From NCBI RefSeq assembly GCF_017377795.1, contig NZ_JAFRDR010000001.1:868001-932000 (forward strand): 64,000 bases of DNA. Direction: 5' to 3'. The notes below the pieces were generated by a model, which worked only from the letters and a program-made list of their open reading frames with translations, was not told the DNA's origin and did not search any database. A program made the position numbers and the translations under genes. Positions 44,116 to 63,119 of this stretch are shown one piece after another; the first letter of the stretch is position 1; every line of letters starts with the position of its first letter. Source of the DNA: Williamsia soli (GTDB taxonomy: Bacteria > Actinomycetota > Actinomycetes > Mycobacteriales > Mycobacteriaceae).

Positions 44116-44186
44116 CCCCCGAAAGTGGGCCCTTTTGGTGAACGAAACCCCAGGTCGGCTCCGCCAGAACAGCACATCTTCGGGGG
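44116..44186. repeat. Palindromic repeat, family B (copy 3), 5' flank of DUF559-type gene 1
   Basis: Left arm from CCCCCGAAAGTGGGCCCTTT (44116) pairs imperfectly with the segment ending TCTTCGGGGG (44186); the loop holds AAACCCCAGG, the complement of the family hallmark. It lies between the ABC permease stop and the DUF559-type gene. Confidence 0.8.
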
Positions 44187-44192
44187 TCGGGG

Positions 44193-44202
44193 CTGTGGAT
44201 AA
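44193..44202 (-). promoter_or_regulatory. DnaA-box-like motif upstream of DUF559-type gene 1
   Basis: CTGTGGATAA, the complement of TTATCCACAG; the core TTATCCACA equals the classical DnaA-box consensus. It ends 50 bp before the start codon at 44253. The same motif ends 51 bp before the starts of the other two DUF559-type genes. Confidence 0.6.
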
Positions 44203-44252
44203 CCCGATTATCGCTGGCCTGTCGTCTTCGGCGGTCCGGTCAGAATCGCCCT

Positions 44253-45122
44253 ATGGGGGATTTTCCGACGGGTCCGTTGCGGGTGGAAATGTTGTTGGCG
44301 ATCATGTCGCGCTATCAGTTGCGCGAGAACTACCGTCTGCTTTTTCGCGGCGTATGGGTTCGAAAGGACCAGATAGTCGACTTCACGATGTCGAGCTACG
44401 CGGCCGGCCTGGCGTACCCGGGCAGCGACGTCAACTTGCCTGGGATCCTCTGCGGGTGGTCAGCTGCTGACCTCTGGGGTAACGCGTACCGTCCGGCCGA
44501 TGCACTTCCCGAGGTCATCGTCCCCATTGATGGACGACGGTTCCGTGGAGTGACTGTGAGGCGGGTGCAACTCGAAGCGGACGAGTACACGGTGCTCGGC
44601 GACTCACTCGTGACGACTCTTCCGCGAACCGCGATCGACCTCGGGCGCTTCAATTCTCGAGATGACGCAGTGTCCGCCCTCGACTCGATGATCCGCGCAC
44701 ACCCCTCTCTCGTCGATGATGTCGAGCGCGTGCTGAAGCGGTGGGAACGGCACTGGGGGATCGGTAAAGCTATCACCGCGCTGAAACTCGCAGATCCGCT
44801 GTCGGAATCTCCGTGGGAGACACGGGTGAGGTTGATCCTCGTCGACGAGGACTTTCATGGATTTACCCTGCAGTACGAGGTGATGTGCGGTAGATATCGG
44901 CTTGACGCGGCATGGCCGCATCTCAAGGTGGCTGTCGAATACGACGGAGAGCACCATCGATCTGCCCAGCAGCATGCCCGTGACCTCGAACGCTGGAATC
45001 GCTTGCGCGCTGAGGGCTGGGTCGTGGTCACGGTGACCGCCTCGAATATCCGACGAGGGCGCGACGAGTTCGTTGCTCAACTGCGTCGAGAACTGCTACT
45101 TCGCGGCTGGCTACCCCGATGA
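44253..45122 (+). CDS. DUF559-type (PD-(D/E)XK-like) protein with AbiEi-like N-terminus, gene 1
   Basis: 289 residues. The N-terminal part (about 10-130) resembles AbiEi-type antitoxin/HTH regions (RENYRLLFRGVWV, TLPRTAIDLGRF). The C-terminal part (about 185-285) is a Vsr/DUF559-like nuclease fold: ESPWETRVRLILVDE, YRLDAAWPHLKVAVEYDGE and ERWNRLRAEGWVVVTVT. The D...EYDG residues are placed like the acidic catalytic set of this fold. Starts MGDFP, like gene 3. Its last codons and stop (CCCCGATGA) are part of a family B palindrome. Biological role unknown. Confidence 0.82.
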   Translation: MGDFPTGPLRVEMLLAIMSRYQLRENYRLLFRGVWVRKDQIVDFTMSSYAAGLAYPGSDVNLPGILCGWSAADLWGNAYRPADALPEVIVPIDGRRFRGVTVRRVQLEADEYTVLGDSLVTTLPRTAIDLGRFNSRDDAVSALDSMIRAHPSLVDDVERVLKRWERHWGIGKAITALKLADPLSESPWETRVRLILVDEDFHGFTLQYEVMCGRYRLDAAWPHLKVAVEYDGEHHRSAQQHARDLERWNRLRAEGWVVVTVTASNIRRGRDEFVAQLRRELLLRGWLPR

Positions 45123-45182
45123 TGGGTTGTTGGCGTCGTCGACCTGGGGTTTTGTTCGCCAAAAGGGCCCACTTTCGGAGGG
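45116..45182. repeat. Palindromic repeat, family B (copy 4), 3' flank of DUF559-type gene 1
   Basis: The left arm CCCGATGATGGGTTGTTGGC begins inside the last codons of the DUF559-type gene. The right arm (GCCAAAAGGGCCCACTTTCGG region, ending 45182 at CGGAG) pairs with it imperfectly. The loop CCTGGGGTTTTG is the family hallmark. Confidence 0.8.
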
Positions 45183-45194
45183 CGGGGGATAGCT

Positions 45195-45239
45195 GTGTCA
45201 ATAAATGTTGACAGGGAATCGGTGTCAGGGTAACTTGAC
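45195..45239 (+). promoter_or_regulatory. Promoter with two overlapping 18-bp inverted repeats
   Basis: -35 TTGACA (45207-45212) and -10 TAACTT (45230-45235) are separated by 17 bp, so transcription should start close to 45242, next to the GTG at 45244 (leaderless or nearly so). TGTCAA-N6-TTGACA (45195-45212) covers the -35, and TGTCA-N8-TGACA (45222-45239) covers the -10. The paired dyads, 27 bp apart, look like an operator for the HTH protein encoded next. Confidence 0.75.
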
Positions 45240-45243
45240 AATC

Positions 45244-45459
45244 GTGCAAGACGAACAGAACGACATCACCACCGCAGTTGCAGATCGGGATCCGGCGAAG
45301 GGGCTGGCCGCGGTCAGGGCGCTGCGAACACTGGCGGACCGTCTCGAAGACGTGCAGGTCGCACATGCCCGACAACAGGGTTGGAGCTGGCAGGCCATCG
45401 CCGACGTCCTCCAGGTGAGTCGACAAGCCGTGCACCAAAAGCATTCACGCGGCGAGTAA
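45244..45459 (+). CDS. Small HTH DNA-binding protein
   Basis: 71 residues: an acidic N-terminal helix (AAVRALRTLADRLEDVQ) and a C-terminal helix-turn-helix, WSWQAIADVLQVSRQAVHQK. GTG 45244 is chosen from the promoter position; no good ribosome binding site is visible, fitting leaderless translation. It is followed 33 nt later by the Clp-N protein gene, a pairing seen in other actinobacteria. Probably a local autoregulator. Confidence 0.78.
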   Translation: MQDEQNDITTAVADRDPAKGLAAVRALRTLADRLEDVQVAHARQQGWSWQAIADVLQVSRQAVHQKHSRGE

Positions 45460-45492
45460 CAACCCGCCGCTCATACACGGAAGCGGGACAAC

Positions 45493-46278
45493 ATGTTTCA
45501 CCAGTTCACTCGCGAAAACAGGATGACCCTGGTTTTCGCTTATCAGGAGGCAGCCGACCTCGGACACACCACTCTCGGCAACGATCACCTCATCCTCGGC
45601 ATGCTCTGCAACGCCAGGACTTCGGTGTTCAACACACTCGGTGAGCAGGGCTTGACCCTGGCTCAGGCCCGCGAGGTGGTGCGCAAGTATCACGACTCTC
45701 ACGAGGTCGATCCGGATAAAGAACAGGTCGCCGAAGACAAGGACGCGCTGGCGGCCATCGGTATCGACCTCGACAAGGTTCGGGAGGCGGTGAAATCCGC
45801 ATTCGGCGAGGACATAACGGACAACTGGGGCAAACGCCGCGGTGGCCGGGGTGGACTCGGACGAGGTGGTCCGGGTGGCCGCGGCGGACCGGAGGGTCGT
45901 GGCGATCGTGGCCACCGGCACGGGGGCCCGCGTGGTCGCCGGGGCGAGGGGCCATGGGAACGACCGTCCGGTGACGGACCGTGGGAACGGCCCGAGGGCG
46001 ACGACGGTGCTCCGTGGGAGCGCGGCGGACCCTGGGAAGGCGGCCGTGGCCGCCGTGGACCGCGGGGTGGCGTACGTCGGCCTCGGTTCTCCAAGGACGC
46101 GAAGACCGCGATCTCGCATGCGGCGCTCATCGCCCGCGATGCCGATCGCGAACTGATTGCCGAGGACGTCCTTCTCGGAATCCTCACGACCGGCGATGCC
46201 GCCTCCAAGGCACTCATCGAATCGGTGACCACCGCCGAGGCGATCCGGGACGCCGTGCAGCGGGCCGAGGCCCAGTAG
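45493..46278 (+). CDS. Clp N-terminal-domain protein with a Gly/Arg-rich linker
   Basis: 261 residues without an AAA+ module. Clp-N repeat 1 covers about 1-70 (MTLVFAYQEAADLGHTTLGN); repeat 2 covers about 198-257 (FSKDAKTAISHAALIARDAD). Between them lies a ~85-residue linker rich in Gly and Arg, with three GPWERP-like units. Stand-alone Clp-N proteins probably act as adaptors or substrate recognisers for Clp proteases. Co-transcribed with the HTH gene just upstream. Confidence 0.85.
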   Translation: MFHQFTRENRMTLVFAYQEAADLGHTTLGNDHLILGMLCNARTSVFNTLGEQGLTLAQAREVVRKYHDSHEVDPDKEQVAEDKDALAAIGIDLDKVREAVKSAFGEDITDNWGKRRGGRGGLGRGGPGGRGGPEGRGDRGHRHGGPRGRRGEGPWERPSGDGPWERPEGDDGAPWERGGPWEGGRGRRGPRGGVRRPRFSKDAKTAISHAALIARDADRELIAEDVLLGILTTGDAASKALIESVTTAEAIRDAVQRAEAQ

Positions 46279-46282
46279 CCCT

Positions 46283-46347
46283 CCGAAGATGGGTCCTTTT
46301 GGCGAACAAACGCCCAGGCGAGCAACGCCAAAAGGGCCCACTATCGG
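46283..46347. repeat. Palindromic repeat, family B (copy 5), bidirectional terminator position
   Basis: The arms CCGAAGATGGGTCCTTTTGG and its partner ending 46347 (complement CCGATAGTGGGCCCTTTTGG) match at most positions; the loop is CAAACGCCCAGGCGAGC. The best-paired family B copy. It fills the gap between the convergent Clp-N gene (stop 46278) and menA (stop 46349). Confidence 0.82.
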
Positions 46348-46348
46348 G

Positions 46349-47218
46349 CTAGGCCAGGAGTAGGCCGACCGCGGTGCCGATGGACCACAGGAGCATCGCG
46401 AGGCCGGTCAGGGCGAGGGCGGGAATCAATGCCGGACCGCCGGCACCACCCCGCACCGGCGCGTTGGCCTTGAACGCCAGCGGCGCCGCCACCAGACCGA
46501 GCAGCGCCCACGGCGTCGCGGCGATCAACACCAGTGACACGACCGATGGAACGATGACGAGGACCGCATGCAGAGTTCGGGTTTGCTTGTCGCCCAGTCG
46601 AACTGCCAGGGTGATCTTGCCCGACTCGGTGTCGGTGGGAATGTCGCGCAGATTGTTGGCGACCAGAACTGCGCTGGAGTACGAGCCGACGGCCACCGCG
46701 GACAGCAGCCCGACCCAGTCGATGGTCTCGGCCTGGACGAACTGCGTACCGCACACCGCGACCAATCCGAAGAACACGAACACCGCGACCTCACCGAAGC
46801 CGCTGTAACCGTACGGGTTACGGCCCCCGGTGTAGAACCAGGCCGCGGCGATGCACCCGAGCCCCACCAGGATCAGCCACCAGGCACTCGTCACCGCGAG
46901 AGCCAGGCCGGCGATCCCGGCGACGGCGAAGGCGGCAATCGCCGCGGTCTTCACCGACTGCGGGGTCGCGACCTTCGACCCCACGAGCCGCATGGGGCCG
47001 ACGCGGTCGTCGTCGGTGCCGCGGATGCCGTCGGAGTAGTCGTTGGCGAAGTTCACACCGATGATCAGCGCCACCGACACCACCAGCGCCAACACCGCCT
47101 TCCACAAGACGATGTCGCCGAGCCAGCCGGCGGCGCCGGTGCCGGCGATGACGGGTGCGATCGCGTTCGGATAGGTACGAGGACGCGACCCTTCGAACCA
47201 CTGCGCTGCGGAAGCCAT
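46349..47218 (-). CDS. menA: 1,4-dihydroxy-2-naphthoate polyprenyltransferase
   Basis: 289-residue membrane prenyltransferase that attaches the isoprenoid tail to 1,4-dihydroxy-2-naphthoate in menaquinone synthesis. The first Asp-rich motif is [16 protein letters not shown] (about residue 57) and the second is [14 protein letters not shown] (about residue 185); nine helices are predicted. ATG 47218 has AAGGA 7 nt upstream. Menaquinone partner gene menE lies at 57379. Divergent from the SARP-type regulator. Confidence 0.95.
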
Positions 47219-47324
47219 GTCAGTATCCTTCCGCACGTGCCTCCGGCGCCTGATCGCCGCACCCGATAGTGTGTAGAGACCATCCCCTGACCTGCAGAAA
47301 CCACTCAACAGCAGCGAGGACGCC

Positions 47325-50300
47325 GTGCCCGTTCAAGTAGCGCCGATCGTCGGACTACTCGGACCGGTGTCGATTGTGGACCGAAACGGGCAAATGCGAC
47401 CCGTCCCCGGAATCCGCGCCCGGCGTCTGCTGGCCCTCCTCGCACTCACGCCCGGGAGCCAGCGCTCGCAGTCGACGCTGATCGACGGCGTCTGGGGTGA
47501 CGACCTCCCGCGATCCCCGCAGTCGGCGCTACACACCCAGATCTCGCGGCTGCGGCCCCTGCTGCCCGACGGCGCGATCGAAGCCGGCCCCCTGGGGTAC
47601 CGGTTGACGCTGCCCGCGGACGCCATCGACGTATTCGCAGCGCAATCCCTGCTCGCCGAGGGGTCGGGCGAGTCCTTGAATGCGGCGTCGGGGCTGTGGC
47701 GCGGAGAGCCCGGTGACGATCTCGGCGACGACGATCTCGCCCGGACCGTTCGGCAGACCGCAGCCCGCGTCGCCGGCGACCTCGACGACCATCGGTCACG
47801 AAAAGCATTGGCCGACGGTGATTTCGAAACGGCGCGGGCACTGGCCCAGGCGCGCTGTGACGCCGATCCGCTGGACGAGGCGGCGCACGCCACGCTGATC
47901 CGTGCGCTGTCGCAGCTGGGACGCGGCGGGGAGGCCCTGGCGGTCTTCGCGCGACTGCGTCGGACGTTGTCGTCCGAACTCGGTGCCGACCCCGGTCCCG
48001 AACTGCTCGAACTCCACCAAGAAGTGCTCGATCAGAAGGGGCCGATCAGATCGGCGTCACGTCCGACGGTCAAAGCCATCGGGTTGTCATCCGAACCCAA
48101 CGCCCTCCTCGGCCGCGACATCGACGTCCAGAACGTGTGTGATCTGCTCAAGAAGTCCCGGGTGGTCACGGTGCAGGGGCCGGGCGGCGCCGGAAAGACT
48201 CGTATTGCCAATCGAATCGGTCATCTGGTCGCCGATGAGGCTGTACAGGTTTATTTCGTCGAACTCGCGTCGGTCCGAGGTGACGACGACGTACTGGCGG
48301 CGGTTGCGGCGACGCTCGGGGTCGGCGAGTCGGAAGTCTCTGCGGGCGGTCGGCCGAAGGCGGTCTATTCCGACCTGCGTACGCGTCTGGCCGACGCGCT
48401 CATCGGCGACACCCTCGTGATCCTCGACAACTGCGAGCACGTCATCGACGCCGCGGCAGCCCTGACGGCCGACTTGATCGCCGCCGTCGACACCGTGCGC
48501 GTGCTGACGACGAGTCGTTCGCCGCTGGCGCTCACCGCGGAAGCCGTGTACGAGTTGCCTCCGCTGCGTATCGACGAAACTGGCTCGGCGGCAACAGATC
48601 TCTTCGAGTCCAGAGCGCACGCCATCCGCCCTGGCGCGGTCACCGAAACCGCGCTGGTCGCGAGGCTCTGCCGGTCGCTCGACGGGCTGCCGCTGGCCAT
48701 CGAACTCGCGGCCGCGCGGGTGCGCACCCTGAGTGTCCAGGAGATCTACGACGGACTCAGCGCCCGGTTCACCCTGTTGCGGGGAGGCGGCCGGTCGTCG
48801 CCGACGCGACACCGCACGTTGCACGCGGTGATCGAGTGGAGCTGGGCGTTGCTGGACGAACCTGCTCAGGTGGCCCTGCAGCAGCTGTGCCGCTTTCCTG
48901 GCGGGTTCTCCCGCGAGGCCGCGGCGGCGGTGACGGGCCTGTCGGGCCCGGAACTCGACGACAACCTCGAGGCCTTGGTCAACCAGTCGCTGCTCAGCGT
49001 GGTCGAATCGGGAACTGTCCGCTACCGCATGCTCGAGACCGTTCGTGAGTTCGGCGAGGAAAAGCTCACTGCCGCAGGGATGAGCAGCGTCATCGATGCG
49101 GCGATGACCCGCTGGGCCACCGACCATGCGCTCACTCTCCTGTCGCCGTTCCTCACCGGTCGGCAGGCGCTCGCGATGTCGGCGCTCGCCGCTGACAGCG
49201 ATAATTTCGTATGGGTCTTGCGGCGGTCCCTCGATCCCGATCCGACGCGTCGTCCGGACGGCTGGGCCCAGGCGGCGGTCACGATCTTCGCTGCGGTGGC
49301 GGGGTTCTGGGCGGTGCGGGGACTGCACGCGGAGGTGGCGGCCTGGGGTCCGCGCCTGGTGAATGCTCTACACGATGCGCCCGAAGCCGCTGCCGGGACA
49401 GATGATTCGGAGCGTGAGATCTGGCAGATGTCCTACGTGTTCGCCGGCTCACACATGTTGTTAGATCCGCACGATCTCCGGGCACTGGCGCGTGCGCGGA
49501 TACGACTACGGACTCTGTACCGCAGCGACCGTTACCTCGACAAGCCCATGGACTTCGTGTCGTCGATTGCGCTGAGCCGCAGTTCGATTGCGGCGATGCG
49601 CGTGCTCGTTGCCGGGCGCGGGAGCGACAGTGCGCTGGTCCGCGCTGTCGCGGTGACGCTGAGCTCGAACATGCGGGAAAACCTGGGGGATCTCGATGGC
49701 GCCATGCGCGACGCGCAGACAACGTACGAGCTGGCGAAAGAACGTGGTGACGAATGGTCGATGGCAGTCGCGCAGATCGAGATCGGCAGCATTCTGGGGC
49801 AAGCCGCCGACTACTTCAACGCCTCTCGTCACTACCGAGAAGCAGTGCAGACGCTCGCCGGCATCGGTGCCGACCAGGACAGCCGGCAGACGATGGGATA
49901 CGTGGTGGGTGCGCTCATCGGCGACGGTCACATCGAGGAGGCCCGACGCACGTTTTTCGACTTCGCCCGGGGGTGGCGTCCGAGTGACCCCGACCCGCGC
50001 GAGCAACCGGAGATCACGTCCGGAATAATGCTGTGCGCAGCAGAATTGGCGCATGCCGAGGGTGATACCCATCTCGAGGTGGAGCTGTTCACCCGGGCTG
50101 CGAACTATCTGATCGCCGAACTGTCGTTCCCGCGGCAAGACCCGTCGGGTTGTCTGGCGCTCTGCGCGGCGCTCGCCGGATTGGTTCGGGTCGACCATGT
50201 GGACGTCGTGGCCCCACTCGTCGACAGATTGTTGGCATACCTCGACTACATGTTCGGCAAAGCCCAGGCCGCCGACATCCCGCAGGCCGGCTCGATGTCG

Positions 50301-50558
50301 TTGTGCCTGGGAGCCCTACTGTGTCTGCGCCAACCCGGTTCGGAGGACGGCGCACGTCTGCTCCTGCTGTCTCGCCGCCTCCGGGGTCGCCGCGATTACC
50401 CGGCGTTGCGCGACCTCGACCGCGACGCCGCGGTACTGTCGGGCCTGCCGGAGCCGGCCTGGGAACGTATCGAATCCGAGGTCGCGAATCACTCCCGAGG
50501 TCAAGCCGCCCGGGACCTGGTCGAGATCGTGAACAGATCAGTGCGCGAACACTTCTGA
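47325..50558 (+). CDS. SARP/AfsR-type regulator with NB-ARC ATPase
   Basis: 1077-residue regulator. An OmpR-like winged helix (about 5-95) and bacterial transcriptional activator domain (about 95-240) are typical of SARPs. An NB-ARC-type ATPase follows with P-loop [14 protein letters not shown] near residue 286 and [20 protein letters not shown] as Walker B. The C-terminal half is helical, TPR-like. Such large regulators control secondary metabolism or export genes. GTG 47325 start. Convergent with drr-type exporter genes across a strong terminator, so not obviously their operon partner. Confidence 0.88.
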
Positions 50559-50566
50559 AGAACACG

Positions 50567-50595
50567 ATCCCCGGCCAGATGATCTGGCCGGGGAT
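50567..50595. terminator. Bidirectional hairpin between regulator and exporter genes
   Basis: ATCCCCGGCCAGAT (50567-50580) and ATCTGGCCGGGGAT (50582-50595) are perfectly complementary. It fills the 52-bp gap between two convergent genes and is GC-rich with only short T/A flanks, so it is best read as a shared intrinsic-like terminator. Confidence 0.85.
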
Positions 50596-50610
50596 TGCAC
50601 CTGTCCGGGT

Positions 50611-52418: not shown

Positions 52419-52526
52419 GGAACACAGAGTGCGGGGCCGTGCTGTCGTGCGGCTGACAGTTGCTGTCGTGAGCTGTCAGGGCCTCGGTGTCGGCCTGTGC
52501 CTTGCCGGATGACCCGTGGCCCATCA

Positions 52527-52586: not shown

Positions 52587-52637
52587 GGGGGAGGCGAGGA
52601 AATCCTGATGCAGCGGGGTTATCAACAACCCCCGGAT

Positions 52638-52647
52638 TTATCCACAG
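52638..52647 (+). promoter_or_regulatory. DnaA-box-like motif upstream of DUF559-type gene 2
   Basis: TTATCCACAG, ending exactly 51 bp before the start codon at 52699. It is followed by GAAGGGTCCGC, nearly shared with gene 3 (CTGGGTCCGC). Confidence 0.6.
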
Positions 52648-52698
52648 GAAGGGTCCGCGAACCCGTGTGCTGTCGGAGCACGATCTCAATGTCGGGGC

Positions 52699-53613
52699 AT
52701 GACATTTTACGAAACCGGCCGGCTCCTACGCAGGGCTGAACTCCTTGCCGCAGGCACGCTCAATGATCAAACTGTCCGCACCGGGCTGAAGTCCGGTGCA
52801 CTGGAGAGGCGCTGCGCGGGTGTCTACGTGCCACCCAGCGACGATTTGTCGAAAGACGACGTCTACCTCGAACGGGTGCACGCGCGAGCGGGCAAGTCGA
52901 GGGTTCGCGTCATCAGTCACGATTCGGCAGCGGCGGTGCACAACCTGGCGTTGCTCGACCAGGACTACCAGCGCGTGCACCTGACCGATCGCCGAGGTGG
53001 GCGAATCACGCATGACCTGCATCTTCACGAGGCCGAGTTCGAGGCGGGGGACATCACCGTCGTCGAGGGACACCGGGTCACATCGATCGCGCGCACGTTG
53101 GCAGACGTTGCCAGAGAGGGCACCTTTTTCGAGGCGTTGGCGGTGTGTGATTCCGGCCTGCGGAGCGGACTGCCCCAGTCGGGTCTGGACGAGATGGCGG
53201 ACCGCTTTCGAGGATTTGTCGGAGGGGCGACGCTGCGCGATGCGGTGTCGCTCGCGGACGGGCAGGCCGCCAATCCGGGAGAGTCACTCAGCCGCGGCCT
53301 GATGCGAAGCTTCCCCGAGGTTCCGACACCCAGGTTGCAGCATCCGTTCTACGACGACGAGGGCCTGATCGGGTACGGCGACTTCGATTGGGACGGCAGA
53401 GTCGTAGGCGAGTTCGACGGGTTGCACAAGTACCGCAAGTATCTGCAACCGGGTGAGTCGATCGAGGACGCGGTCATCCGTGAAAAACGTCGAGAAGACC
53501 GACTGCGGGCCCTGGGGATCCACGTCGTCCGTTGGACGTGGAAAGACCTGCAGGACGCGGTGCGGTTCCGGGCGCTGCTCGCAAAAGGGCTGCGGATGGC
53601 AGGCATGTTGTGA
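52699..53613 (+). CDS. DUF559-type (PD-(D/E)XK-like) protein with AbiEi-like N-terminus, gene 2
   Basis: 304 residues. The N-terminal AbiEi-like half has TVRTGLKSGALERRCAGVYV and later VTSIARTLADVAREGTFFEA. The C-terminal nuclease-like part (about 195-300) has ESLSRGLMRSFPE, YGDFDWDGRVVGEFDGLHKY, IREKRREDRLRALGIHVVRW. This is the intact form of the gene 3 type: 40-50% of the C-terminal residues are the same by eye. The stop codon is 15 bp from a family A palindrome. Confidence 0.82.
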   Translation: MTFYETGRLLRRAELLAAGTLNDQTVRTGLKSGALERRCAGVYVPPSDDLSKDDVYLERVHARAGKSRVRVISHDSAAAVHNLALLDQDYQRVHLTDRRGGRITHDLHLHEAEFEAGDITVVEGHRVTSIARTLADVAREGTFFEALAVCDSGLRSGLPQSGLDEMADRFRGFVGGATLRDAVSLADGQAANPGESLSRGLMRSFPEVPTPRLQHPFYDDEGLIGYGDFDWDGRVVGEFDGLHKYRKYLQPGESIEDAVIREKRREDRLRALGIHVVRWTWKDLQDAVRFRALLAKGLRMAGML

Positions 53614-53628
53614 TCGACCCCCCCACCA

Positions 53629-53688
53629 CCCACCCGAATTCGTGCCGCCCACCTGTTGGTTCGAGTGGACGATGCAAAAACGGGTGGG
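53629..53688. repeat. Palindromic repeat, family A (copy 3), 3' flank of DUF559-type gene 2
   Basis: 60 bp, CCCACCCGAATTCGTGCC on the left and GATGCAAAAACGGGTGGG on the right. Begins 15 bp after the gene 2 stop. The inner stem is weaker than in other copies. Confidence 0.85.
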
Positions 53689-53737: not shown

Positions 53738-53797
53738 CCCACCCGAATTCGCGCCGCCCACCGGCAGTATCCGGTGGGCGACGCAAAAACGGGTGGG
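53738..53797. repeat. Palindromic repeat, family A (copy 4)
   Basis: 60 bp, same orientation as the other three. The left arm is CCCACCCGAATTCGCGCCG and the inner stem CCCACCGG/CCGGTGGG. With copy 3 it forms a direct pair 109 bp apart. Confidence 0.85.
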
Positions 53798-54218: not shown

Positions 54219-55361
54219 CTACACTTCGCGATCACTTGTCAGGTAGACATCGTTTGTGGTGACACCAGTATCGGGGTCACGGTTAGCAGGCATAATTAAA
54301 TGCGGGGTGTTGCGCCCGGGATGTTCGGCGTCCGAGTATCTTTCGACCAAACCCTTCTTCTCGATCCGTATTCTCTCGGTCCCTGAGCTGCCACTCCGAT
54401 AAACGGTCACCACGTGATCTCGGCCCGCCGGGAGCACCCGAACACGCACGTGCCCATCGCGCGCGTCCTGCAGCGCTGCCGTCACCACCACGTGCACCCA
54501 GTTGCGCATTTCCTCGTAGGTGAAGTCCAGGCCGCCGTCGTCGATCAACGTCACCTCGACCCCGCGAGCGCGCGCCGCCCGTGCCGCTGCGGCGGTCACC
54601 GGGCTCACCAACGCCGCTGCCCGGAGCTGATCGCGCAGATGCGCTTCCAACAGTTCGCAGGCCTGCCGTTCAGCCGCTGTCAGCGGCTCCCCGGTCGCGA
54701 TGCGCAGGAGCAGTGGCCGCGCCAGCTCGTCGAGCTCGGCCAGCCGAGCATTGCGCTCCTGACCTGCAGCAAGGATCATCGACGCGTCAGCTGCACGCTG
54801 TCTGGCCTGGGCACGGAACAGTAGGATTGAACGCGTCGTCTTACGAATGGCAAGCGCAATCAGGGTCACGGCGAGCAACGCACCGGCGTTGTACAGCGGA
54901 ACCTGCGCGCCCGCCCAGATGCCCTGGTCGGTGGCCGCCGCCCACCAGGCGTGGACGGCGACGGACGCGGCAACGCTCAGCCAGGCGAGCAGAATGCGGC
55001 CCCGCAAACACATGAAGACATAGATCAGGGTGGCGTAGCCCGAGATCCAGACCTGGTTCGACGTGGCCAGTGGCACCGGCACCACCGACAGCAGGATGGC
55101 AGCGGATACGGGGGGCGCCAGAGCCATCAGGATCGCGGGCGCCAGCGGCAGTGGATCGTTCGGCACCGCCACCAGGGCAATCGTTGCGGTGGCCATGATC
55201 AGGACGACGATCACCACCGGCCACAGCGGGGAGATCCCCTCGACGCTCATCGCCGCACCGAACGCCATGGCGACGACGACCGCGCCGATGATCACGCGGG
55301 TCGCAACAGTGCGCAGCCCCAAGATGTCCCTGACGTCCGCCGGGTCAGAGAATTGCGTCAC
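54219..55361 (-). CDS. Membrane protein related to sensor kinases, degenerate catalytic domain
   Basis: 380 residues: six or seven hydrophobic segments in the first ~180 residues, a coiled linker (about 185-225), then a C-terminal part placed like a DHp/HATPase module. The ATP-binding N- and G-boxes seen in the neighbouring kinase are missing (only DDGGLDFTYEEMRNWVHVVV), so kinase activity is unlikely. It overlaps the kinase stop by 4 nt. Likely a signal-receiving partner or pseudokinase. Confidence 0.7.
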   Translation of the reverse strand: MTQFSDPADVRDILGLRTVATRVIIGAVVVAMAFGAAMSVEGISPLWPVVIVVLIMATATIALVAVPNDPLPLAPAILMALAPPVSAAILLSVVPVPLATSNQVWISGYATLIYVFMCLRGRILLAWLSVAASVAVHAWWAAATDQGIWAGAQVPLYNAGALLAVTLIALAIRKTTRSILLFRAQARQRAADASMILAAGQERNARLAELDELARPLLLRIATGEPLTAAERQACELLEAHLRDQLRAAALVSPVTAAAARAARARGVEVTLIDDGGLDFTYEEMRNWVHVVVTAALQDARDGHVRVRVLPAGRDHVVTVYRSGSSGTERIRIEKKGLVERYSDAEHPGRNTPHLIMPANRDPDTGVTTNDVYLTSDREV

Positions 55362-56572
55362 GGTCGCTTCCAGCTCAGAGACACCGTGGTACCCGCGCCC
55401 GGTGAAGAAGTGATTTCAGCCTTGCCGCCCGGCAGCTGATCCATTCGGCCGCGGATGCTGACGGCCAGTCCGAGGCGGTTTCCGGGTACGGTCCGCGGGT
55501 TGAAGCCGACCCCGTCGTCGGATACCGACACCTGCAGGACGTCGTTGTCGGCAGCGACGTTCACCGTCCGGCGGGCATCGGGACCGGCGTGCCGAACACT
55601 GTTGCGCAGGGCTTCGGCGGCGGCGGCGGACATCGTACGGACGACCTCACCCGGGTATCGCTGGCTGCCCAGATCAGGAGCAATGGACGCGTGGACGCGG
55701 ACGGCGTCATCGATTTCTCCTGTCGCGCCCCGGAACTCGGCCAGCGCAGCCTCCAGGCCGAACTCGGTCGCTCCTCTGGCGCCGGACTCGAGGACGTCGA
55801 GTTTGTCCACGGTCTCGACGGCTTGGCGGACGAGCGCTTCGGACATCGGCAGTCGGGCGGCAGCGAGCAGGGTCGACATCACTCCGTCGTGTGTCAGTGC
55901 GTCGAATCGAGACCGTTCACTCGCCCGGGCGACCGAGGCCGCGGCCTCCGCTGCGGCTTGCACAGACCGCTTGCGGGTGGCATCGAGGATGCGACCGGAT
56001 CGCATCGCGGCCACCACGACTGCGTAGGGCATCGCCGTGAGGCAGAAACTCCAGGCGATCTCGGTCATCACGGCGCTGTCGTACGCCGGTGTCCGCACCG
56101 CTTCGTTGACGAACTGGACGGAGATGACCACGTAGACGAGGTACGGCAATGACCATCGCATCCGCCAGATCAACCCGGCTGCGGCGGCGACGAATCCGTT
56201 GAACTGGGTGAACCACATCCCGTGGCCGGCATCGAGCTGATCGCCGTTCCACACCAACGGCCACGTCGCGATCGTCAGGGCGTAGCCGATGACGAGGACG
56301 GTTGCCGCCCACCGGACCCACTCGATGTCCGGACGCCGGAACGACGTGGCGAACATGACCGCGGCCGAGCCATAGATGGACAGCACCGAGGCGGCGGTCC
56401 ACCAGACCGGGACGACATCGGTGGACATCGCTATCGCTCCCGACAGGCCGACCGCGCTCAGCAGATACGCGACCGCAAGGTAGCGGCAGAACTGTCGAAA
56501 GATGTTGTCGGCTGCGCTGCCGTCGGGAGAATTGGCTCTCAGCGCCGGAACAACCGCGGTATCGGCAGCCAT
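55358..56572 (-). CDS. Sensor histidine kinase
   Basis: 404 residues. Six membrane segments in the first ~190 residues. A HisKA_3-like region contains RFDALTHDGVMSTLLAAAR (candidate phospho-His in HDG). The HATPase has AEALRNSVRHAG (N-box), VSDDGVGFNP (G1) and GLAVSIRGR (G2). It overlaps the response regulator by 34 nt. A LuxR-family system of unknown signal. Confidence 0.86.
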   Translation of the reverse strand: MAADTAVVPALRANSPDGSAADNIFRQFCRYLAVAYLLSAVGLSGAIAMSTDVVPVWWTAASVLSIYGSAAVMFATSFRRPDIEWVRWAATVLVIGYALTIATWPLVWNGDQLDAGHGMWFTQFNGFVAAAAGLIWRMRWSLPYLVYVVISVQFVNEAVRTPAYDSAVMTEIAWSFCLTAMPYAVVVAAMRSGRILDATRKRSVQAAAEAAASVARASERSRFDALTHDGVMSTLLAAARLPMSEALVRQAVETVDKLDVLESGARGATEFGLEAALAEFRGATGEIDDAVRVHASIAPDLGSQRYPGEVVRTMSAAAAEALRNSVRHAGPDARRTVNVAADNDVLQVSVSDDGVGFNPRTVPGNRLGLAVSIRGRMDQLPGGKAEITSSPGAGTTVSLSWKRP

Positions 56573-57207
56573 CCATCCTCCAGGGCGCGTTTGTAGAGTT
56601 CGGTTTTGGTCGGGGCAGGGCGGCCGGCGTCGGCGTACTTACGGCGTATCCGGGCGAGGTAGGCATTCACGGTCTCTGTGGACAGGCCGGTGATCTGACC
56701 GACCCGGGCCGCCTGCTCGCCGGAGGCGTACAGCTCGAGGATTTCGCGCTGACGCGGGCTCAGGGCAACCGCCGCGATGTCGGGATCACCATCGATCGCG
56801 GCAGCCCAGTCCATGGTGGCGACCGTGTCACCGTCGGCGGCCCGTCGGATGGCCTCGACCAATTCGGTGTTGCGCGCGGACTTTCGGACAATTCCCTGCA
56901 CGCCTGCACTGAGTGCGGAACGAACGAGGTCAGGGTAGTCGGCGGTGGTGAACACCAACACCTTGATCCCCAGCGCGTGCAGCTGTTCGGCGTTGGCCTT
57001 CGGGGAGGAACCGTCTTCCAGTCTGAGGTCGAGCACGACCAGGTCGATGTCCGTGGTGATCGCGAGTAACGCGTCGACGGTGGACGCCCCTGCGACCAGG
57101 GCCAGCCCCTCGGCTTCGTCGATGATCGCTTCGATTCCTTTGAGCTGGGATTCGAAGTCCTCGACCACACCGATTCTGAATAGACCTCCCGCAGCGCCGT
57201 CGGTCAT
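56539..57207 (-). CDS. LuxR/NarL-family response regulator
   Basis: 222 residues from ATG 57207. Receiver domain with phospho-Asp in LVVLDLRLED and the lysine in GIVRKSARNTE; C-terminal HTH SPRQREILELYASGEQAARV and VNAYLARIRRKYADAGRPAP. First gene in the transcription order of the four-gene two-component locus. The ATG at 57240 is a second possible start. Confidence 0.88.
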   Translation of the reverse strand: MTDGAAGGLFRIGVVEDFESQLKGIEAIIDEAEGLALVAGASTVDALLAITTDIDLVVLDLRLEDGSSPKANAEQLHALGIKVLVFTTADYPDLVRSALSAGVQGIVRKSARNTELVEAIRRAADGDTVATMDWAAAIDGDPDIAAVALSPRQREILELYASGEQAARVGQITGLSTETVNAYLARIRRKYADAGRPAPTKTELYKRALEDGWLPIPRLFRR

Positions 57208-57378
57208 CGCTCCGCCTGTGGCTGGACGGTCATCGGGCATTCCACCTCGTAATCCTGACGTGAACAGCAGACAATGCGCCTGTGAACCTCAATACATGAG
57301 CAATTCTTGATCGCGTACCCAGTTCAGAGTGTTACGGCCGCGGGCAGAATCAGCGAAGATTCGGGACGGGAACGACTC

Positions 57379-58524: not shown

Positions 58525-58877
58525 TCCGGTGCTTCTGCCGGCGGGCTCTCCGGGGGCGGGTCGAGGGGGTTGGGGTCGAAGGGCCAGCCTTTGGCCTCCA
58601 GATGCTTACGGATCCGCGAGACGTCGGCTTCGAATGGCAGCTCGTCGGTCACCTTCGTGATCAGGACGCCCGCGTCGATGGAGGTGATGGGTTCGGGGCC
58701 GTCGTCGGTCACCTGGCCACTGTGGATCAGCTGCCGGGAGACGGACTTGACCTCTTCCTCGGACAGCTGCCTACGCAGGAGCGCGACCAGCGGCACGTAA
58801 TCGCCGGACGGCACCCCGTTCGGATATCCCTCGCGCAACCAGTTCACGACTCTCATCAGGAATTGTGGACGGTCCAT
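58521..58877 (-). CDS. DUF3349 family protein
   Basis: 118 residues, FLMRVVNWLREGYPNGVPSG at the start and VTDELPFEADVSRIRKHLEA further on; Pro-rich C-terminus (LDPPPESPPAEAPE). Family known from Rv0543c; function unknown. ATG 58877 has GAAGG 8 nt upstream. Overlaps menE in ATGA. Confidence 0.87.
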   Translation of the reverse strand: MDRPQFLMRVVNWLREGYPNGVPSGDYVPLVALLRRQLSEEEVKSVSRQLIHSGQVTDDGPEPITSIDAGVLITKVTDELPFEADVSRIRKHLEAKGWPFDPNPLDPPPESPPAEAPE

Positions 58878-58961
58878 TTTCACGCCCTTCCAACTATGAG
58901 GCGTCATCGATCAGCCGCTTCCAGACCAAATCGAGTTCTACGATGATACTGCGGTCGGTGT

Positions 58962-59240
58962 TCAGCTCTCGACAAAGGGGAACAGGTCGACACCGAAGTA
59001 GTAGTCGATGGTGCCGCGCGTGATCCACAGGATGCCGATCACGATGACAGCCGCGATGATCGCGAACAGCAGGTACGCAATACCTTTGAGTACCGGGTTC
59101 GGTGCGGTGACGGTGCCGTCCGTGGCCTCGCCTGAACCGGCCGAGTGCAGCCGGATGCCGATGGCGAAGATCGCGGGAAGTCCGGCGCCGAGGAGCAGGC
59201 CGACTACGAGAACTTTGAAGATCGCTTCGACGGTCTCCAT
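58962..59240 (-). CDS. Small membrane protein (Rv0544c position)
   Basis: 92 residues with two hydrophobic helices (about 5-28 and 50-75) and a short polar loop. Sits 3 nt after pitA in transcription order, the position of the Rv0544c membrane protein. It may belong to the phosphate transporter operon; role unknown. Confidence 0.78.
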   Translation of the reverse strand: METVEAIFKVLVVGLLLGAGLPAIFAIGIRLHSAGSGEATDGTVTAPNPVLKGIAYLLFAIIAAVIVIGILWITRGTIDYYFGVDLFPFVES

Positions 59241-59243
59241 GGG

Positions 59244-60476
59244 TCAGACCCCTTCTTTTTCTTTGTACGCGGCGGAGACGTCGGCGGGGATGACGCTTCC
59301 GGTGGCTTCGTCCCAGTCGGCGTTGACGTTGTTGCTGTCGACCTTCTGCAGCTGGGCGCGGTAATACATGAAGCCTGACGCGGCGAGCAGGATCAAGAAG
59401 ATGATGATGGCGCCGGCAGCTCCGCCGGTGAGGTTGGCGATGAAGAACGACAGTGCACCCACGAGGGCGGCGGCCGGGAGTGTGAAGACCCACGCGGTGG
59501 CCATCCGTCCGGCGACCGACCAGCGGACGGTTGCCCCCTTCTTGCCGACGCCCGATCCGAGGATCGAGCCGGTGGCGACCTGGGTGGTCGACAGAGCCAT
59601 GCCGGCCGCGCTCGAGGTCAGGATGATCGCGGCGGACGACGCTTCGGCGGCCATACCCTGCGGGGACTCGATCTCCACGAGTCCCTTGCCGAGTGTGCGG
59701 ATGATGCGCCAGCCGCCGAGGTAGGTGCCGAGGGCGATCGCGCCGGCGCAGCTGAAGACGATCCAGAACGGCAGGCCATGCTCGACGCTGCCTGCGCTGA
59801 GGTGCCCGCTGGCGATCATCGCCATCGCGATCACGCCCATCGTCTTCTGGGCGTCACCGGTCCCATGGGCGAGCGCGACCAGCGACGCCGATGCGATCTG
59901 GCCGACCCGGAAGCCTTGTGCCTTCTTGTTTTCGGCGACCTTCTTCGTCAGCGCATAGATGATGTACGTACCGGTGGCCGCCACGATGCAGGCGATGATC
60001 GGGGCCATCAGGCCGGGGATCAGGATCTTCTTGGTGAGCCCTTCCCAGTTGACACCGGAGGTGCCCAGGGCGGCGATGCCCGCGCCGATGAGGCCGCCGA
60101 AGAGCGCGTGAGAGGAACTCGAGGGCAGACCGAACAGCCAGGTGAAGAGGTTCCAGAGGATGCCGCCCACGAGGCCGGCGAAGATGATGATCATCGCCTT
60201 CTGGGCGTCGAGGCCACCGATGAGGCTGCCCGCCTCATCGCCCGAGGTCTGCTGGATCTTCAGCACGTCCTTCGTGATGGTCGCTGCGACCTCCACCGAA
60301 AGGAACGCTCCGACAAGGTTCAGAAGTGCCGCGATGGTGACCGCGGTCTTGGGCTTGAGGGCGCCGGTCGCGATGGACGTCGCCATTGCATTTCCGGTGT
60401 CGTGAAAGCCATTTGTGAAGTCAAATCCCAGTGCCGTGATGACCAGCAGCACGAGAATCAACATTTCTGCGCTCAT
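59244..60476 (-). CDS. pitA: PitA-type inorganic phosphate transporter
   Basis: 410-residue Pit family carrier with the duplicated signature: GFDFTNGFHDTGNAMATSIA in the N-terminal half and ALAHGTGDAQKTMGV in the second half. Imports metal-phosphate by proton symport. ATG 60476 is chosen because the upstream in-frame residues look untranslated. A PHO-box-like direct repeat lies about 95 bp upstream. Confidence 0.95.
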   Translation of the reverse strand: MSAEMLILVLLVITALGFDFTNGFHDTGNAMATSIATGALKPKTAVTIAALLNLVGAFLSVEVAATITKDVLKIQQTSGDEAGSLIGGLDAQKAMIIIFAGLVGGILWNLFTWLFGLPSSSSHALFGGLIGAGIAALGTSGVNWEGLTKKILIPGLMAPIIACIVAATGTYIIYALTKKVAENKKAQGFRVGQIASASLVALAHGTGDAQKTMGVIAMAMIASGHLSAGSVEHGLPFWIVFSCAGAIALGTYLGGWRIIRTLGKGLVEIESPQGMAAEASSAAIILTSSAAGMALSTTQVATGSILGSGVGKKGATVRWSVAGRMATAWVFTLPAAALVGALSFFIANLTGGAAGAIIIFLILLAASGFMYYRAQLQKVDSNNVNADWDEATGSVIPADVSAAYKEKEGV

Positions 60477-60570
60477 GAGTAAGATTCTGAGCGTCACCTG
60501 AGGATCCGTCCAAACGGACATAGTGCAAATCGCCAATGTGACCTGGCGTTTTCCGCGCAGAGTCGGGGCT

Positions 60571-60592
60571 GTTCATCAACTGTTCATTTAGC
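60571..60592. promoter_or_regulatory. PHO-box-like 11-bp direct repeat
   Basis: GTTCATCAACT followed directly by GTTCATTTAGC: two 11-bp units sharing GTTCAT, the layout of PhoP/RegX3 PHO boxes in actinobacteria. It lies midway (about 95 bp from each start) between pitA and the divergent F420-type gene. Suggests phosphate control of pitA. Based on pattern only. Confidence 0.55.
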
Positions 60593-60686
60593 GTCCGCTG
60601 ATCAGCCACGCGGGCGAAGCTGCTTTGACTGCCATATGAAACACTTTGCATACACGATCGCAGTGACGCGAACCTCTGGAGGACAC

Positions 60687-61739
60687 ATGAAAATCGGCAT
60701 GGCCATCAACTACGCGGGCGATTTCGCGGAGACGATCAACAACCTCGTCGATTTCGAAAATGTTGGGCTCGACCGCATCACGGTGCCCGAGGCATACAGC
60801 TTCGACGCCGTGAGTCAGCTCGGATACATCGCCGCCAAGACCTCCACGTTGGAGCTGGCGACCGGCATCCTGCCGATGTACTCGCGCACGCCGACCAATC
60901 TCGCGATGACCGCCGCCGGACTCGACTACATTTCCGGCGGCCGCTTCGTGCTGGGCATCGGCGCGTCGGGACCGCAGGTGATCGAAGGGTTCCACGGTGT
61001 GAAATACGATGCGCCGGTCGGCCGCGCTCGCGAGAACGCCGAGATCTGCCGCATGGTGTGGCGACGGGAGCGCACCGATTACCAGGGCAAGTACTACAAA
61101 CTGCCGTTCACCAAGGAAGACGGCGGCACCGGACTGGGCAAGCCGCTCAAGATCATCAATCACCCGGTGCGCGAGCGTATCCCGATGCTCTTGGCCGCCA
61201 TCGGCCCGAAGAACGTCGAGCTCGCCGCCGAACTATTCGAGGAGTGGCAGCCCATCCTCTTCCATCCCGAGCACCTGGCGACCGCGTTCGGCGAGGCCCT
61301 GGACAAGGGCAACGCGAAGCGTGATCCGTCGCTCGGCACGCTGGGGATCTCCGTGCACGCCACGACGCTCATCTCCGACGACAAGGACGAGCAGCGCAAC
61401 GCGCTGAACCTGGTCAAGCACCACGCTGCGCTCTACATCGGCGGTATGGGTGCCCGCGGCAAGAACTTCTACAACGATCTCGCCGTCCGCTACGGCTACG
61501 AGGAAGCTGCCAAGAAGGTCCAGGACCTCTACCTCGACGGCCAGAAGGCCGAAGCCGCCGAAGCGATCCCGGACGAACTCGCCGCGGGTATGTCCCTGAT
61601 CGGCTCGAAGAGCTACGTCGCCGAACGCCTCACCGCGTTCAAGGACGTCGGCCTGAGCACCCTCCTCGTCGCCTCGGCAGCTCAGGGCCATGACGCCCAG
61701 GTCGACCAGATCCGACAGCTGAAAGAGCTCGTCGCGTAA
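60687..61739 (+). CDS. LLM-class F420-dependent oxidoreductase
   Basis: 350-residue luciferase-like protein: MKIGMAINYAGDFAETINNL, then AAKTSTLELATGILPMYSRT, and the ISGGRFVLGIGASGPQVIEG loop typical of F420-dependent members. The substrate is unknown. ATG 60687 has GGAGG 4 nt upstream. Divergent from pitA. Confidence 0.9.
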   Translation: MKIGMAINYAGDFAETINNLVDFENVGLDRITVPEAYSFDAVSQLGYIAAKTSTLELATGILPMYSRTPTNLAMTAAGLDYISGGRFVLGIGASGPQVIEGFHGVKYDAPVGRARENAEICRMVWRRERTDYQGKYYKLPFTKEDGGTGLGKPLKIINHPVRERIPMLLAAIGPKNVELAAELFEEWQPILFHPEHLATAFGEALDKGNAKRDPSLGTLGISVHATTLISDDKDEQRNALNLVKHHAALYIGGMGARGKNFYNDLAVRYGYEEAAKKVQDLYLDGQKAEAAEAIPDELAAGMSLIGSKSYVAERLTAFKDVGLSTLLVASAAQGHDAQVDQIRQLKELVA

Positions 61740-61751
61740 GCCTTCTGCTCA

Positions 61752-61811
61752 CGCTCGCAAAACTTGGTCCCGCTCACTCCACGGAGTGAGCGGGACCAAG
61801 TTTTGCGAGCG
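61752..61811. repeat. Palindromic repeat, family C, perfect 29-bp stem; 5' flank of DUF559-type gene 3
   Basis: The left arm 61752-61780 and right arm 61783-61811 are perfectly complementary over 29 bp with a two-base centre (AC). The arm begins CGCTCGCAAAACTTGG. Total 60 bp, the same length as family A. It begins 12 bp after the F420-type gene stop. Confidence 0.95.
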
Positions 61812-61812
61812 C

Positions 61813-61841
61813 TTGTCCACAGTTCCCTCGTCTGTCCACAG
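61813..61841 (+). promoter_or_regulatory. Two DnaA-box-like motifs upstream of DUF559-type gene 3
   Basis: TTGTCCACAG (61813-61822) and CTGTCCACAG (61832-61841). TTGTCCACA is the mycobacterial DnaA-box consensus. The second ends 51 bp before ATG 61893 and is followed by CTGGGTCCGC, nearly the same as upstream of gene 2. Likely part of the gene's promoter or regulatory region. Confidence 0.6.
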
Positions 61842-61892
61842 CTGGGTCCGCTGCGGGGATGGTTGGGGCACGGTGTCGGCCAAGATCGAGCC

Positions 61893-63119
61893 ATGGGGGG
61901 ATTTCCTGAGGACAGTGACGGTTTGGTGTGGCGCGAAGCGGTGTTGGCGCAGGGGCACACCGACGACGTGATCAAGCGTGCGATCGCGGACAAGAGATTG
62001 CTCCGGATCTGGCCGGGCGTCTATGCGGTGGCGTCTCGGGAGCGGAACATCGACCAGCTTCGGAGGCTTCGCGTCATCGCGGCCGTACGCAGCTGCGATG
62101 AACCAATGGTCGCCAGTCACCAGTCGGCAGCGCTGTTGCACCATCTGCCGTTGCTGAAGCCCGGGTACGCCAAAGTGCATCTGACCACCGGTCGCGACGG
62201 CGGTGGACGCATCGAGAAGCGACGTCACCTGCACACCGGAGCTCTCGGCGCCGACGATGTGATCCGGTCTGGTCAAGTGTTCGTGACCTCGATTGCGCGC
62301 ACTGCCGTCGATTGTGCGCGGGCTGGGTCGTTCGAGGAAGGGGTCGTGGCGTTCGACGGTGCACTGCGGATGGGTGCCGACCGAGCGGAGATGATGACTC
62401 AGCTCGAGCAGATCCGCGGCAGTCGGGGGGTCTCGCGAGCGCTACGCGCGCTCGACGTCTCGGATGCATTGTCGGAGAGTGTCGGCGAATCGTGGAGTCG
62501 GGCGCAGATGATCGCCTGCCCTGACATCCGAAAGCCGGGCTTGCAGCGCACGTTTTATGACTCGGACGGACGTTTCGTCGCGCGAGTCGACTTCGAGTGG
62601 GAGGGCCGGCTGGTCGCGGAGTTCGACGGCATCGTGAAGTACGGGGCGGGGTCGATGTTGCCGGGACAGACGCCGAACGACGTCGTCATTGCCGAGAAGA
62701 TTCGAGAGGATCGGCTACGATCCCGCTCGGTCTACGGAGTGAGCGGGACAGAGTTCTGCGAGCGGGAGCTACTCGAACTGGGATTTGTACATCACCGCGT
62801 ACCGCCCTTCGCGGGCCAGGAGTTCGGTGTGGGTGCCCTGTTCGGTGACGACGCCGTCTTCGACGACGGCGATGGAGTCGGCCTCGCGGATGGTCGAGAG
62901 GCGATGGGCGACAACGATCGTGGTCGTGCGTTTCTTCAGCGTCTCCAGGGCCCGGGCGATGAGCAGTTCGGTGCGGGAGTCGACGGCGCTGGTCGCCTCG
63001 TCGAGGACCAGGATGCGGGGATGCGCGACCATGGCGCGCGCGATGGTGATGAGCTGCATCTGACCCTCGCTGAGCGTGGTCCCGCCGTCGCCGATGACGG
63101 TGTCGAAACCGTCGGGTAG
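61893..63119 (+). CDS. DUF559-type protein, gene 3, 3' part replaced by a repeat fragment
   Basis: Homologous part 61893 to about 62722. The N-terminal AbiEi-like half (RAIADKRLLRIWPGVYAVAS; VTSIARTAVDCARAG) and nuclease-like region (RVDFEWEGRLVAEFDGIVKY, EKIREDRLR) match gene 2. Gene 2 continues with ALGIHVVRWTWKDL, but here the frame enters a family C half-palindrome (from 62721, giving SRSVYGVSGTEFCER). It then continues about 115 codons antisense to the ABC exporter gene to a stop at 63119. The C-terminus is thus probably a decay product and the true functional end uncertain. Starts MGGFP like gene 1. Confidence 0.65.
   Translation: MGGFPEDSDGLVWREAVLAQGHTDDVIKRAIADKRLLRIWPGVYAVASRERNIDQLRRLRVIAAVRSCDEPMVASHQSAALLHHLPLLKPGYAKVHLTTGRDGGGRIEKRRHLHTGALGADDVIRSGQVFVTSIARTAVDCARAGSFEEGVVAFDGALRMGADRAEMMTQLEQIRGSRGVSRALRALDVSDALSESVGESWSRAQMIACPDIRKPGLQRTFYDSDGRFVARVDFEWEGRLVAEFDGIVKYGAGSMLPGQTPNDVVIAEKIREDRLRSRSVYGVSGTEFCERELLELGFVHHRVPPFAGQEFGVGALFGDDAVFDDGDGVGLADGREAMGDNDRGRAFLQRLQGPGDEQFGAGVDGAGRLVEDQDAGMRDHGARDGDELHLTLAERGPAVADDGVETVG
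62721..62765. repeat. Family C repeat fragment inside DUF559-type gene 3
   Basis: TCCCGCTC (62721-62728) pairs with GAGCGGGA (62741-62748), and the right half (ACGGAGTGAGCGGGACAGAG, continuing to TGCGAGCG near 62765) resembles the family C right arm. The left outer arm is missing. It lies at the end of the DUF559-type homology and 4 bp before the ABC exporter stop codon. Confidence 0.8.

Follow-up and report, generated by a model that had tools for sequence, protein, structure and literature searches.

What does a palindrome gain from standing beside a nuclease gene, and the gene from its palindromes? The question is raised by a stretch of 64,000 nucleotides from Williamsia soli (assembly GCF_017377795.1, contig NZ_JAFRDR010000001.1, positions 868,001 to 932,000; from here: the window), in which three genes of one protein type are each flanked by copies of a different palindrome. 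We compared the genome of the 64-kb window (G000) with relatives of the genus (G001–G008) and searched for homologues beyond the genus. The results point to a gene-and-repeat partnership in many actinobacteria, undescribed so far, which resembles the partnership of repetitive extragenic palindromic (REP) elements with RAYT transposases but is unrelated to it. We refer to each gene with its two flanks as a cassette. The three window cassettes consist of the following features, in window coordinates:

44116..44186, plus strand: family B palindrome, imperfect, 5′ of gene 1 (score 11)
44194..44201, minus strand: DnaA-box-like TATCCACA in the leader of gene 1 (L003)
44253..45122, plus strand: gene 1, AbiEi-like N-terminal part and DUF559/MTES_1575 nuclease domain (DUF559 match 7.4e-8, above the cut-off)
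45116..45182, minus strand: family B palindrome 3′ of gene 1, in opposite orientation, overlapping the stop codon
52527..52586, plus strand: family A palindrome 5′ of gene 2 (83% paired)
52639..52646, plus strand: DnaA-box-like TATCCACA in the leader of gene 2 (L001)
52699..53613, plus strand: gene 2, AbiEi-like part (about 1–190) and Vsr/EDxHD-fold nuclease (about 192–303)
53629..53688, plus strand: family A palindrome 3′ of gene 2, a weaker copy (score 10) that aligns with other A copies
53738..53797, plus strand: second family A palindrome 3′ of gene 2 (85% paired)
61752..61811, unstranded: family C palindrome 5′ of gene 3 (29/29 pairs)
61814..61821, plus strand: DnaA-box-like TGTCCACA, first of a pair spaced 19 bp (L069)
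61833..61840, plus strand: DnaA-box-like TGTCCACA, second of the pair (L069)
61893..about 62720, plus strand: gene 3, same protein type, C-terminal end lost (open frame continues to 63119)
62721..62765, unstranded: remnant of a family C palindrome 3′ of gene 3, centre and right arm

An earlier note on this DNA had assigned the three genes to a shared protein type and placed the A, B and C palindromes at these positions; both statements held, and genes 1, 2 and 3 align along their length. Its description of gene 3, set between a perfect C copy and a half copy, was right for the palindromes but not for the gene, which by its sequence is a damaged copy: similarity ends about 34 residues before the end of gene 2, and the frame enters the centre and right arm of the downstream palindrome.

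Five second-order Markov shuffles of the window served as chance control. Palindromes of score ≥13 numbered 12 in the window versus 6 in the five shuffles together, those of score ≥16 seven versus none. Not all high scorers belong to the families, as one of the seven (1152-1234) is a tandem-repeat array and some of the twelve, inside genes, look like chance. The family B copy at 44116-44186 is by itself within chance (43 palindromes of score ≥11 in the five shuffles), nevertheless it aligns with other B copies. A chance origin of the palindromes was ruled out by the shuffles together with the control windows described below. An Rfam search of the window returned no RNA family.

The three window genes encode proteins composed of an AbiEi-type DNA-binding part and a nuclease of the Vsr/EDxHD fold. 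PADLOC AbiEi models match the N-terminal part in up to eight of nine members (best 4.1e-17) and Pfam AbiEi_4 matches three of the nine (E up to 0.1). No fold is claimed for the first 141 residues, because residues 1–141 of the structural model lie mostly under a pLDDT of 50. The nuclease domain has the Vsr-like catalytic fold, a statement that rests on a comparison other than Foldseek, which alone gave no E below 0.001; a profile search of the sequences of solved structures gave a chance hit only. Kept nuclease residues are E201, D235, E-x-D-G at 245–248 and K251, which are candidates for the EDxHD catalytic motif. Transposase families were absent from the Pfam and NCBIfam matches of the nine members. 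Among the seven proteins neighbouring the three window genes, two of which matched no family, there was neither a toxin family nor an AbiEii nucleotidyltransferase, nor a partner methyltransferase, for which the rest of the genome was not searched.

The earlier note had proposed a survey of homologue flanks. G000 alone holds 12 homologues, and the nine genus genomes gave 74 profile matches at 1e-10, which became 70 gene places once three broken genes had been joined and one 61-residue fragment dropped. In the usual plan, the upstream palindrome ends mostly 80–115 bp before the first matched codon and the downstream one begins mostly 0–15 bp past the stop codon. Palindromes of score ≥13 were counted in fixed windows around 60 core places, with 10 low-scoring matches set aside and places cut by contig ends left out of the respective denominator. 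A palindrome was present upstream of 33/58 core places, downstream of 37/59, on at least one side of 44/57 and on both sides of 26/57. For 29 loci of other genera in the order, the best-scoring ones returned rather than a random draw, the corresponding counts were 19, 22, 25 and 16, while control windows at the same loci scored 32/1422 and 12/1422 (1–2%). Nine of the 10 set-aside matches had no palindrome above threshold in the fixed windows; L010 had one on both sides, and L103 showed a score-13 palindrome over its stop codon in a wider scan. The DUF559 relatives L097–L103, L011 and L012 of the same genomes had neither a palindrome above threshold in the fixed windows nor DnaA-box-like leader sites.

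Matches were found in 211 of 298 genomes of the order at 1e-30 and in 32 of 296 genomes of the phylum search. An uncontrolled manual tally of 27 new phylum loci, which took in some 500 bp before and 400 bp after the gene at score ≥13, gave palindromes on both sides at 17, on one side at 6 and on none at 4; some of these are short terminator-like hairpins. In one genus of the same family (g2), palindromes stand on both sides of the gene at four loci (L255, L261, L262, L263), with 2–7 matches per g2 genome listed, at most seven having been scored. One-query searches yielded three plasmid records, all Tsukamurella, and no phage record.

The palindromes share a layout but not a sequence. In a set of 113 flanking palindromes of score ≥13, 46–101 bp long, positions 19 bp apart within an arm agree at 0.50 versus 0.28 ± 0.008 in shuffled arms (z 26.6). 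The agreement peaks at a lag of 19 in the genus (0.61; next 0.31) and of 20 in the order set (0.49; next 0.38), and with ties shared the best lag is 19 in 74.5 and 20 in 20.8 of the 113; some loci of the phylum set have 19 as their best lag, outright or as a tie, and others do not. This within-arm agreement means that most palindromes are built from a single short motif present four times, twice in each direction, and the motif differs from family to family. Such a layout would be that of a DNA-binding target with several sites.

The two palindromes that flank one locus have a median similarity of 0.79 (n=43), compared with 0.57 between loci (1806 pairs), and in 27 of 43 cases the partner from the same locus is the top-ranked one. 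Over 70 cassettes, palindrome similarity tracks protein similarity (Mantel r 0.52, reached in 0/999 permutations), with r 0.54 for the N-terminal and 0.43 for the C-terminal part of the protein; part of this correlation comes from gene and flanks being inherited together. With most homologue flanks carrying palindromes as well, the pairing of gene type and palindrome family suggested by the earlier note was borne out.

Dispersed copies were counted as pattern matches per genome, of which one palindrome can yield two. Where the cognate gene is present, family A has 36 matches in G000 (29 places), 45 in G007 and 6 in G001; where it is absent, there are 4 in G006, 1 in G002 and 2, 1, 3 and 1 in the remaining genomes (reversed control 0–2). 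Family D has 28, 33, 16 and 18 matches in four genomes with its gene and 0, 1, 0, 0 and 0 in five without. For family F the counts are 19, 39, 27, 34 and 4 in five genomes with the gene and 0 in the other four. Copies are thus numerous only where the cognate gene is present, in the three families counted, and the likeness to REP/RAYT drawn by the earlier note held as well.

Lone copies were surveyed at 55 chosen loci, six of which had no palindrome near the centre. Among the 49 remaining rows one palindrome is counted twice, and L226 is probably part of a cassette split over contigs. By a crude test, all 49 lie outside composition-filtered reading frames. Both neighbouring genes could be read at 29, with 17 converging, 11 tandem and 1 diverging; 20 of the 49 were left without a call.

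What happens to the palindromes when the gene is lost? The gene-2 cassette occupies the same place in G000, G007 and G001 and is missing there in G006 and G002. At 15 places that hold a family A palindrome in G000 and could be read in G006 (11 with both flanks plus four from other stretches; a twelfth had one flank only), the palindrome is intact in G006 at none. G007 also holds a family A palindrome at seven of the 15 (5 + 2; two further G007 comparisons did not confirm), so that loss in G006 is the simplest reading. Absence by descent was ruled out by closeness, G006 being nearer to G000 than G007 is in four of five core segments and in both family A flanks compared. An assembly artefact was ruled out by the D and F patterns, abundant in G006 (33 and 39 matches). 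In the exceptional segment, window 54300-57100, G006 differs from G000 by 0.27 versus 0.03–0.08 in the other compared segments, which suggests local replacement.

Several of the losses are near-precise; one leaves a half palindrome ending at the centre and two leave short end stubs. At L019, a family B palindrome stands in G006 where family A was lost, and one intact family A copy is retained elsewhere in that genome. Family D, whose gene G006 has kept, served as control: it is intact at five of six readable G000 places, and at the sixth only the left arm is left, ending at the centre. Palindromes broken at or near the centre with one half left were seen at L185:1495-1530 (family D), in the A pair of L122 and at window 62721-62765 (family C). 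The comparison adds to the earlier note that the gene is linked to palindrome retention, family A being gone where the gene was lost.

Across the genus, the cassettes mostly keep their chromosomal position. Shared flanks group them into 12 sites of 3 to 9 members (including the set-aside L010 and L103; two more groups consist wholly of set-aside matches), and frequent hopping of whole cassettes is not supported, since flanks are common across species. Both orientations occur in 5 of the 12 sites, and gene 3 is reversed in G002, G003, G004, G005, G006 and G008. Such reversals in place fit recombination between the flanking palindromes; replacement is a possible alternative where the proteins are only 44–60% alike. 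One site carries a K-type cassette in G000 and an H-type cassette in G006. At one chromosomal place (L010, L048, L049, L056, L067, L074, L075, L078) different cassette types occur across species, in both orientations. A 1.1-kb insertion in G007 (L080:737-1853), absent in G001 and G002, was rejected as a cassette because it holds a monooxygenase-like frame (judged by eye).

Within the cassettes, the leader between upstream palindrome and gene frequently contains TRTCCACA, which we take to be the core of a DnaA box. It was found in 52/97 leaders versus 6/2755 control windows, namely in 44/58 of the core genus, 8/29 of the order and 0/10 of the set-aside matches. Of 61 boxes, 23 are followed 19 bp downstream by a second one (at least six of eight letters). 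The 49 lone-copy rows have no such box within 150 bp. A link of the leaders to replication is possible.

The earlier note had also listed lone A and B copies in the window, which are present, together with a family D copy and one of another family that it had missed:

9852..9919, unstranded: lone family D palindrome (cognate gene elsewhere, G000:C11:520758-521690)
16689..16753, unstranded: lone family B-like palindrome
25749..25810, unstranded: lone palindrome of the TCCTCCGACT family (gene type in G002, G003, G004, G005 and G008, not seen in G000)
31275..31334, unstranded: lone family A palindrome with no counterpart at the corresponding place in G006
31344..31406, unstranded: lone family B palindrome, present in G006 too
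46283..46347, unstranded: lone family B palindrome

Further palindromes without a known partner gene were seen in passing. Three of 75–83 bp lie at L246:217-299 (ATGGCCCTGAAAACCGG...), L249:1340-1420 (TCGCCCTGACATCGTCCCC...) and L249:7215-7289 (CCCTGAGATCGTCCCC...), two of them with counterparts in G006, and one of 75 bp (CACCACATTCAGCC...; L237:13023-13097) is present in G006 where G000 has a clean empty site. Repeats of the GAGCGTGCC type stand at window 1152-1234 and in G000:C19 near 629701, one of these places being a 117-bp insertion relative to G006.

The best-supported account of these observations, which we put forward tentatively, is a gene-palindrome partnership like that of RAYT and REPINs with an unrelated enzyme, working by binding, cutting and repair-driven spread or upkeep. 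The cassette would be a single-gene element made up of a palindrome, a leader of ~100 bp often with DnaA-box-like sites, the gene and a second palindrome. The AbiEi-like part would bind its own palindrome as double-stranded DNA via the four short motifs, two per arm and 19–20 bp apart; the Vsr/EDxHD-type nuclease domain would cut at or beside bound palindromes, and repair of the cuts would copy palindromes to intergenic places or keep them there. The gene, vertically inherited, would in this manner sustain a set of palindromes private to it. The comparison itself shows the pairing, the layout, the presence of copies with the gene in three families, their joint loss in one lineage and the reversal in place; binding, cutting and repair we infer.

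Several observations weigh against this account. Of the 57 core places, only 26 are flanked by strong palindromes on both sides and 13 lack one altogether, and a few of the counted upstream palindromes are ordinary terminators or repeat arrays (e.g. upstream of L067). The own partner palindrome ranks fifth or lower in 7 of 43 cases. The gene-linked loss is one gene-loss event in one lineage. No new insertion was dated, the checked family A places being older than the split of G000 and G007. The genomes with D or F (G000, G002, G006 and G007; for F also G001) may form one clade, so that shared descent explains part of the D and F pairing; only family A cuts across that possible clade. In G001, which carries the A and F genes, lone copies are few or absent: all four F matches belong to the cassette itself, and of the six A matches no more than four lie elsewhere. 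The gene-palindrome rule is not absolute, because at least one palindrome persists in two genomes without its gene: G000 and G006 share the TCCTCCGACT palindrome in the same position. For one lone G006 palindrome, the gene type was likewise not among the G006 matches (by eye). Finally, the usual catalytic lysine is not at its alignment place (E-x-D-G), and nuclease activity is therefore assumed from the fold.

A bolder form of the partnership, which we consider doubtful, would see phylum-wide 'palindrome writers': a homing-endonuclease-type nuclease under DnaA-linked control, directed by its AbiEi-type part to a palindrome with four sites, that copies and restores intergenic palindromes without a transposase, gene and palindromes coevolving as a selfish or mutualistic unit. 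Rather unlikely is a host regulator or chromosome organiser, i.e. a domesticated DNA-binding factor whose lone palindromes, frequently located at gene 3′ ends, are working sites (e.g. terminators or insulators) that are removed once the gene is lost. The position of the lone copies outside the filtered frames and, where both neighbours were read, mostly between converging genes agrees with this, as does the fixed place of the cassettes over the genus; moreover, according to excerpts of PMC7319586, AbiEi-family antitoxins bind inverted repeats and Rv2827c binds four. A regulator sits badly, however, with many families of one layout and different sequences coexisting in one genome, with conserved nuclease residues and with a near-whole removal at most places that is cleaner than expected for merely useless sites.

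It is less probable still that the bound protein acts as a shield, guarding deletion-prone palindromes of 60–80 bp from hairpin nucleases or slippage, with passive loss after the gene has gone and spread due to some other cause. The G006 losses, which are almost exact or spare just a half or an end stub of the palindrome, and the three breaks at the centre (gene 3, the A pair in G006 and the family D copy in G006) speak for such a role, but it leaves the conserved nuclease domain and the origin of the copies without an account, and B, D and F palindromes persist in G006, as does one TCCTCCGACT palindrome without its gene. A role in defence, in which the palindromes would label self DNA or direct the nuclease to invaders, is very improbable: the PADLOC defence library does contain AbiEi models that fit the N-terminal part, yet these are antitoxin models, the seven neighbouring proteins include no toxin family and the one-query searches found three plasmid records and no phage record.

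An ordinary gene with no more than an operator before it and a terminator behind it would be in line with AbiEi proteins autoregulating via promoter repeats (excerpts of PMC7319586), but the same palindrome stands on both sides and at many other places, and nine related DUF559 genes do without one above threshold in the fixed windows, L103 included; we give this reading hardly any credence. Equally far-fetched, despite the likeness to REP elements, is movement of the palindromes by other machinery (RAYT or insertion sequence) with the nuclease genes as bystanders, since protein clades match palindrome clades and the Y1 (RAYT/IS200-type) transposase domain PF01797 occurs in 0/9 genus genomes (control positive in 5/14 known genomes; other transposase families were not searched).

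Within the titles and abstract starts of the open-access PMC literature, the scope of our search, to which subscription papers and bioRxiv do not belong, we found no description of DUF559 or AbiEi genes paired with palindromes. From insertion sequences and miniature inverted-repeat transposable elements (MITEs) the cassettes differ by the lack of a transposase domain in the nine members. Two pairs of filled and empty sites showed no clear target-site duplication; their flanks differ, and one pair probably reflects loss from G006, since G007 has the copy. With EDxHD homing endonucleases (I-Bth0305I) they share the Vsr-like catalytic fold; unlike these, they have no single allelic target but lie at no fewer than 12 site groups, and they possess an AbiEi-like part and flanking and dispersed palindromes. 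The N-terminal part matches models of AbiEi, as in the type IV toxin-antitoxin system AbiE (AbiEi; Rv2827c), whereas here a nuclease is fused to it, palindromes occur on both sides and dispersed, and no toxin is found among the seven neighbours. Vsr endonucleases and DUF559 proteins differ in lacking the fused AbiEi-like part and the private palindromes. Double-hairpin elements of fungal mitochondria are mobile palindromes near endonuclease genes, with other enzymes and in other genomes. In iteron replicons, an initiator gene is accompanied by direct repeats and DnaA boxes, and replication is autonomous; the features here that bear on this comparison are the 19–20 lag and the TRTCCACA leaders.

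The closest comparison is with REPtrons. According to excerpts of PMC3733652, the RAYT gene is flanked by its own palindromes, copies are dispersed and repeat-specific gene types occur in one genome; excerpts of PMC8049555 add that repeats are commoner where the gene is present and that the genes do not copy themselves. As in REPtrons, the gene here is flanked by a palindrome that is also dispersed. The enzyme, however, is an AbiEi part with a Vsr/EDxHD-fold nuclease and not a Y1 transposase, and the palindromes measure 46–101 bp with a motif repeated every 19–20 bp per arm, compared with 20–40 bp for REPs. Because no Y1 transposase domain occurs in the nine genomes, the cassettes do not belong to the REPtrons; the likeness in behaviour stands. 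If the partnership is real, a single genome would hold many orthogonal protein-palindrome pairs, a natural library of DNA-recognition specificities, proteins annotated 'AbiEi family antitoxin' or 'DUF559' would have a likely role, and REP-like palindromes would have a second, unrelated kind of partner enzyme.

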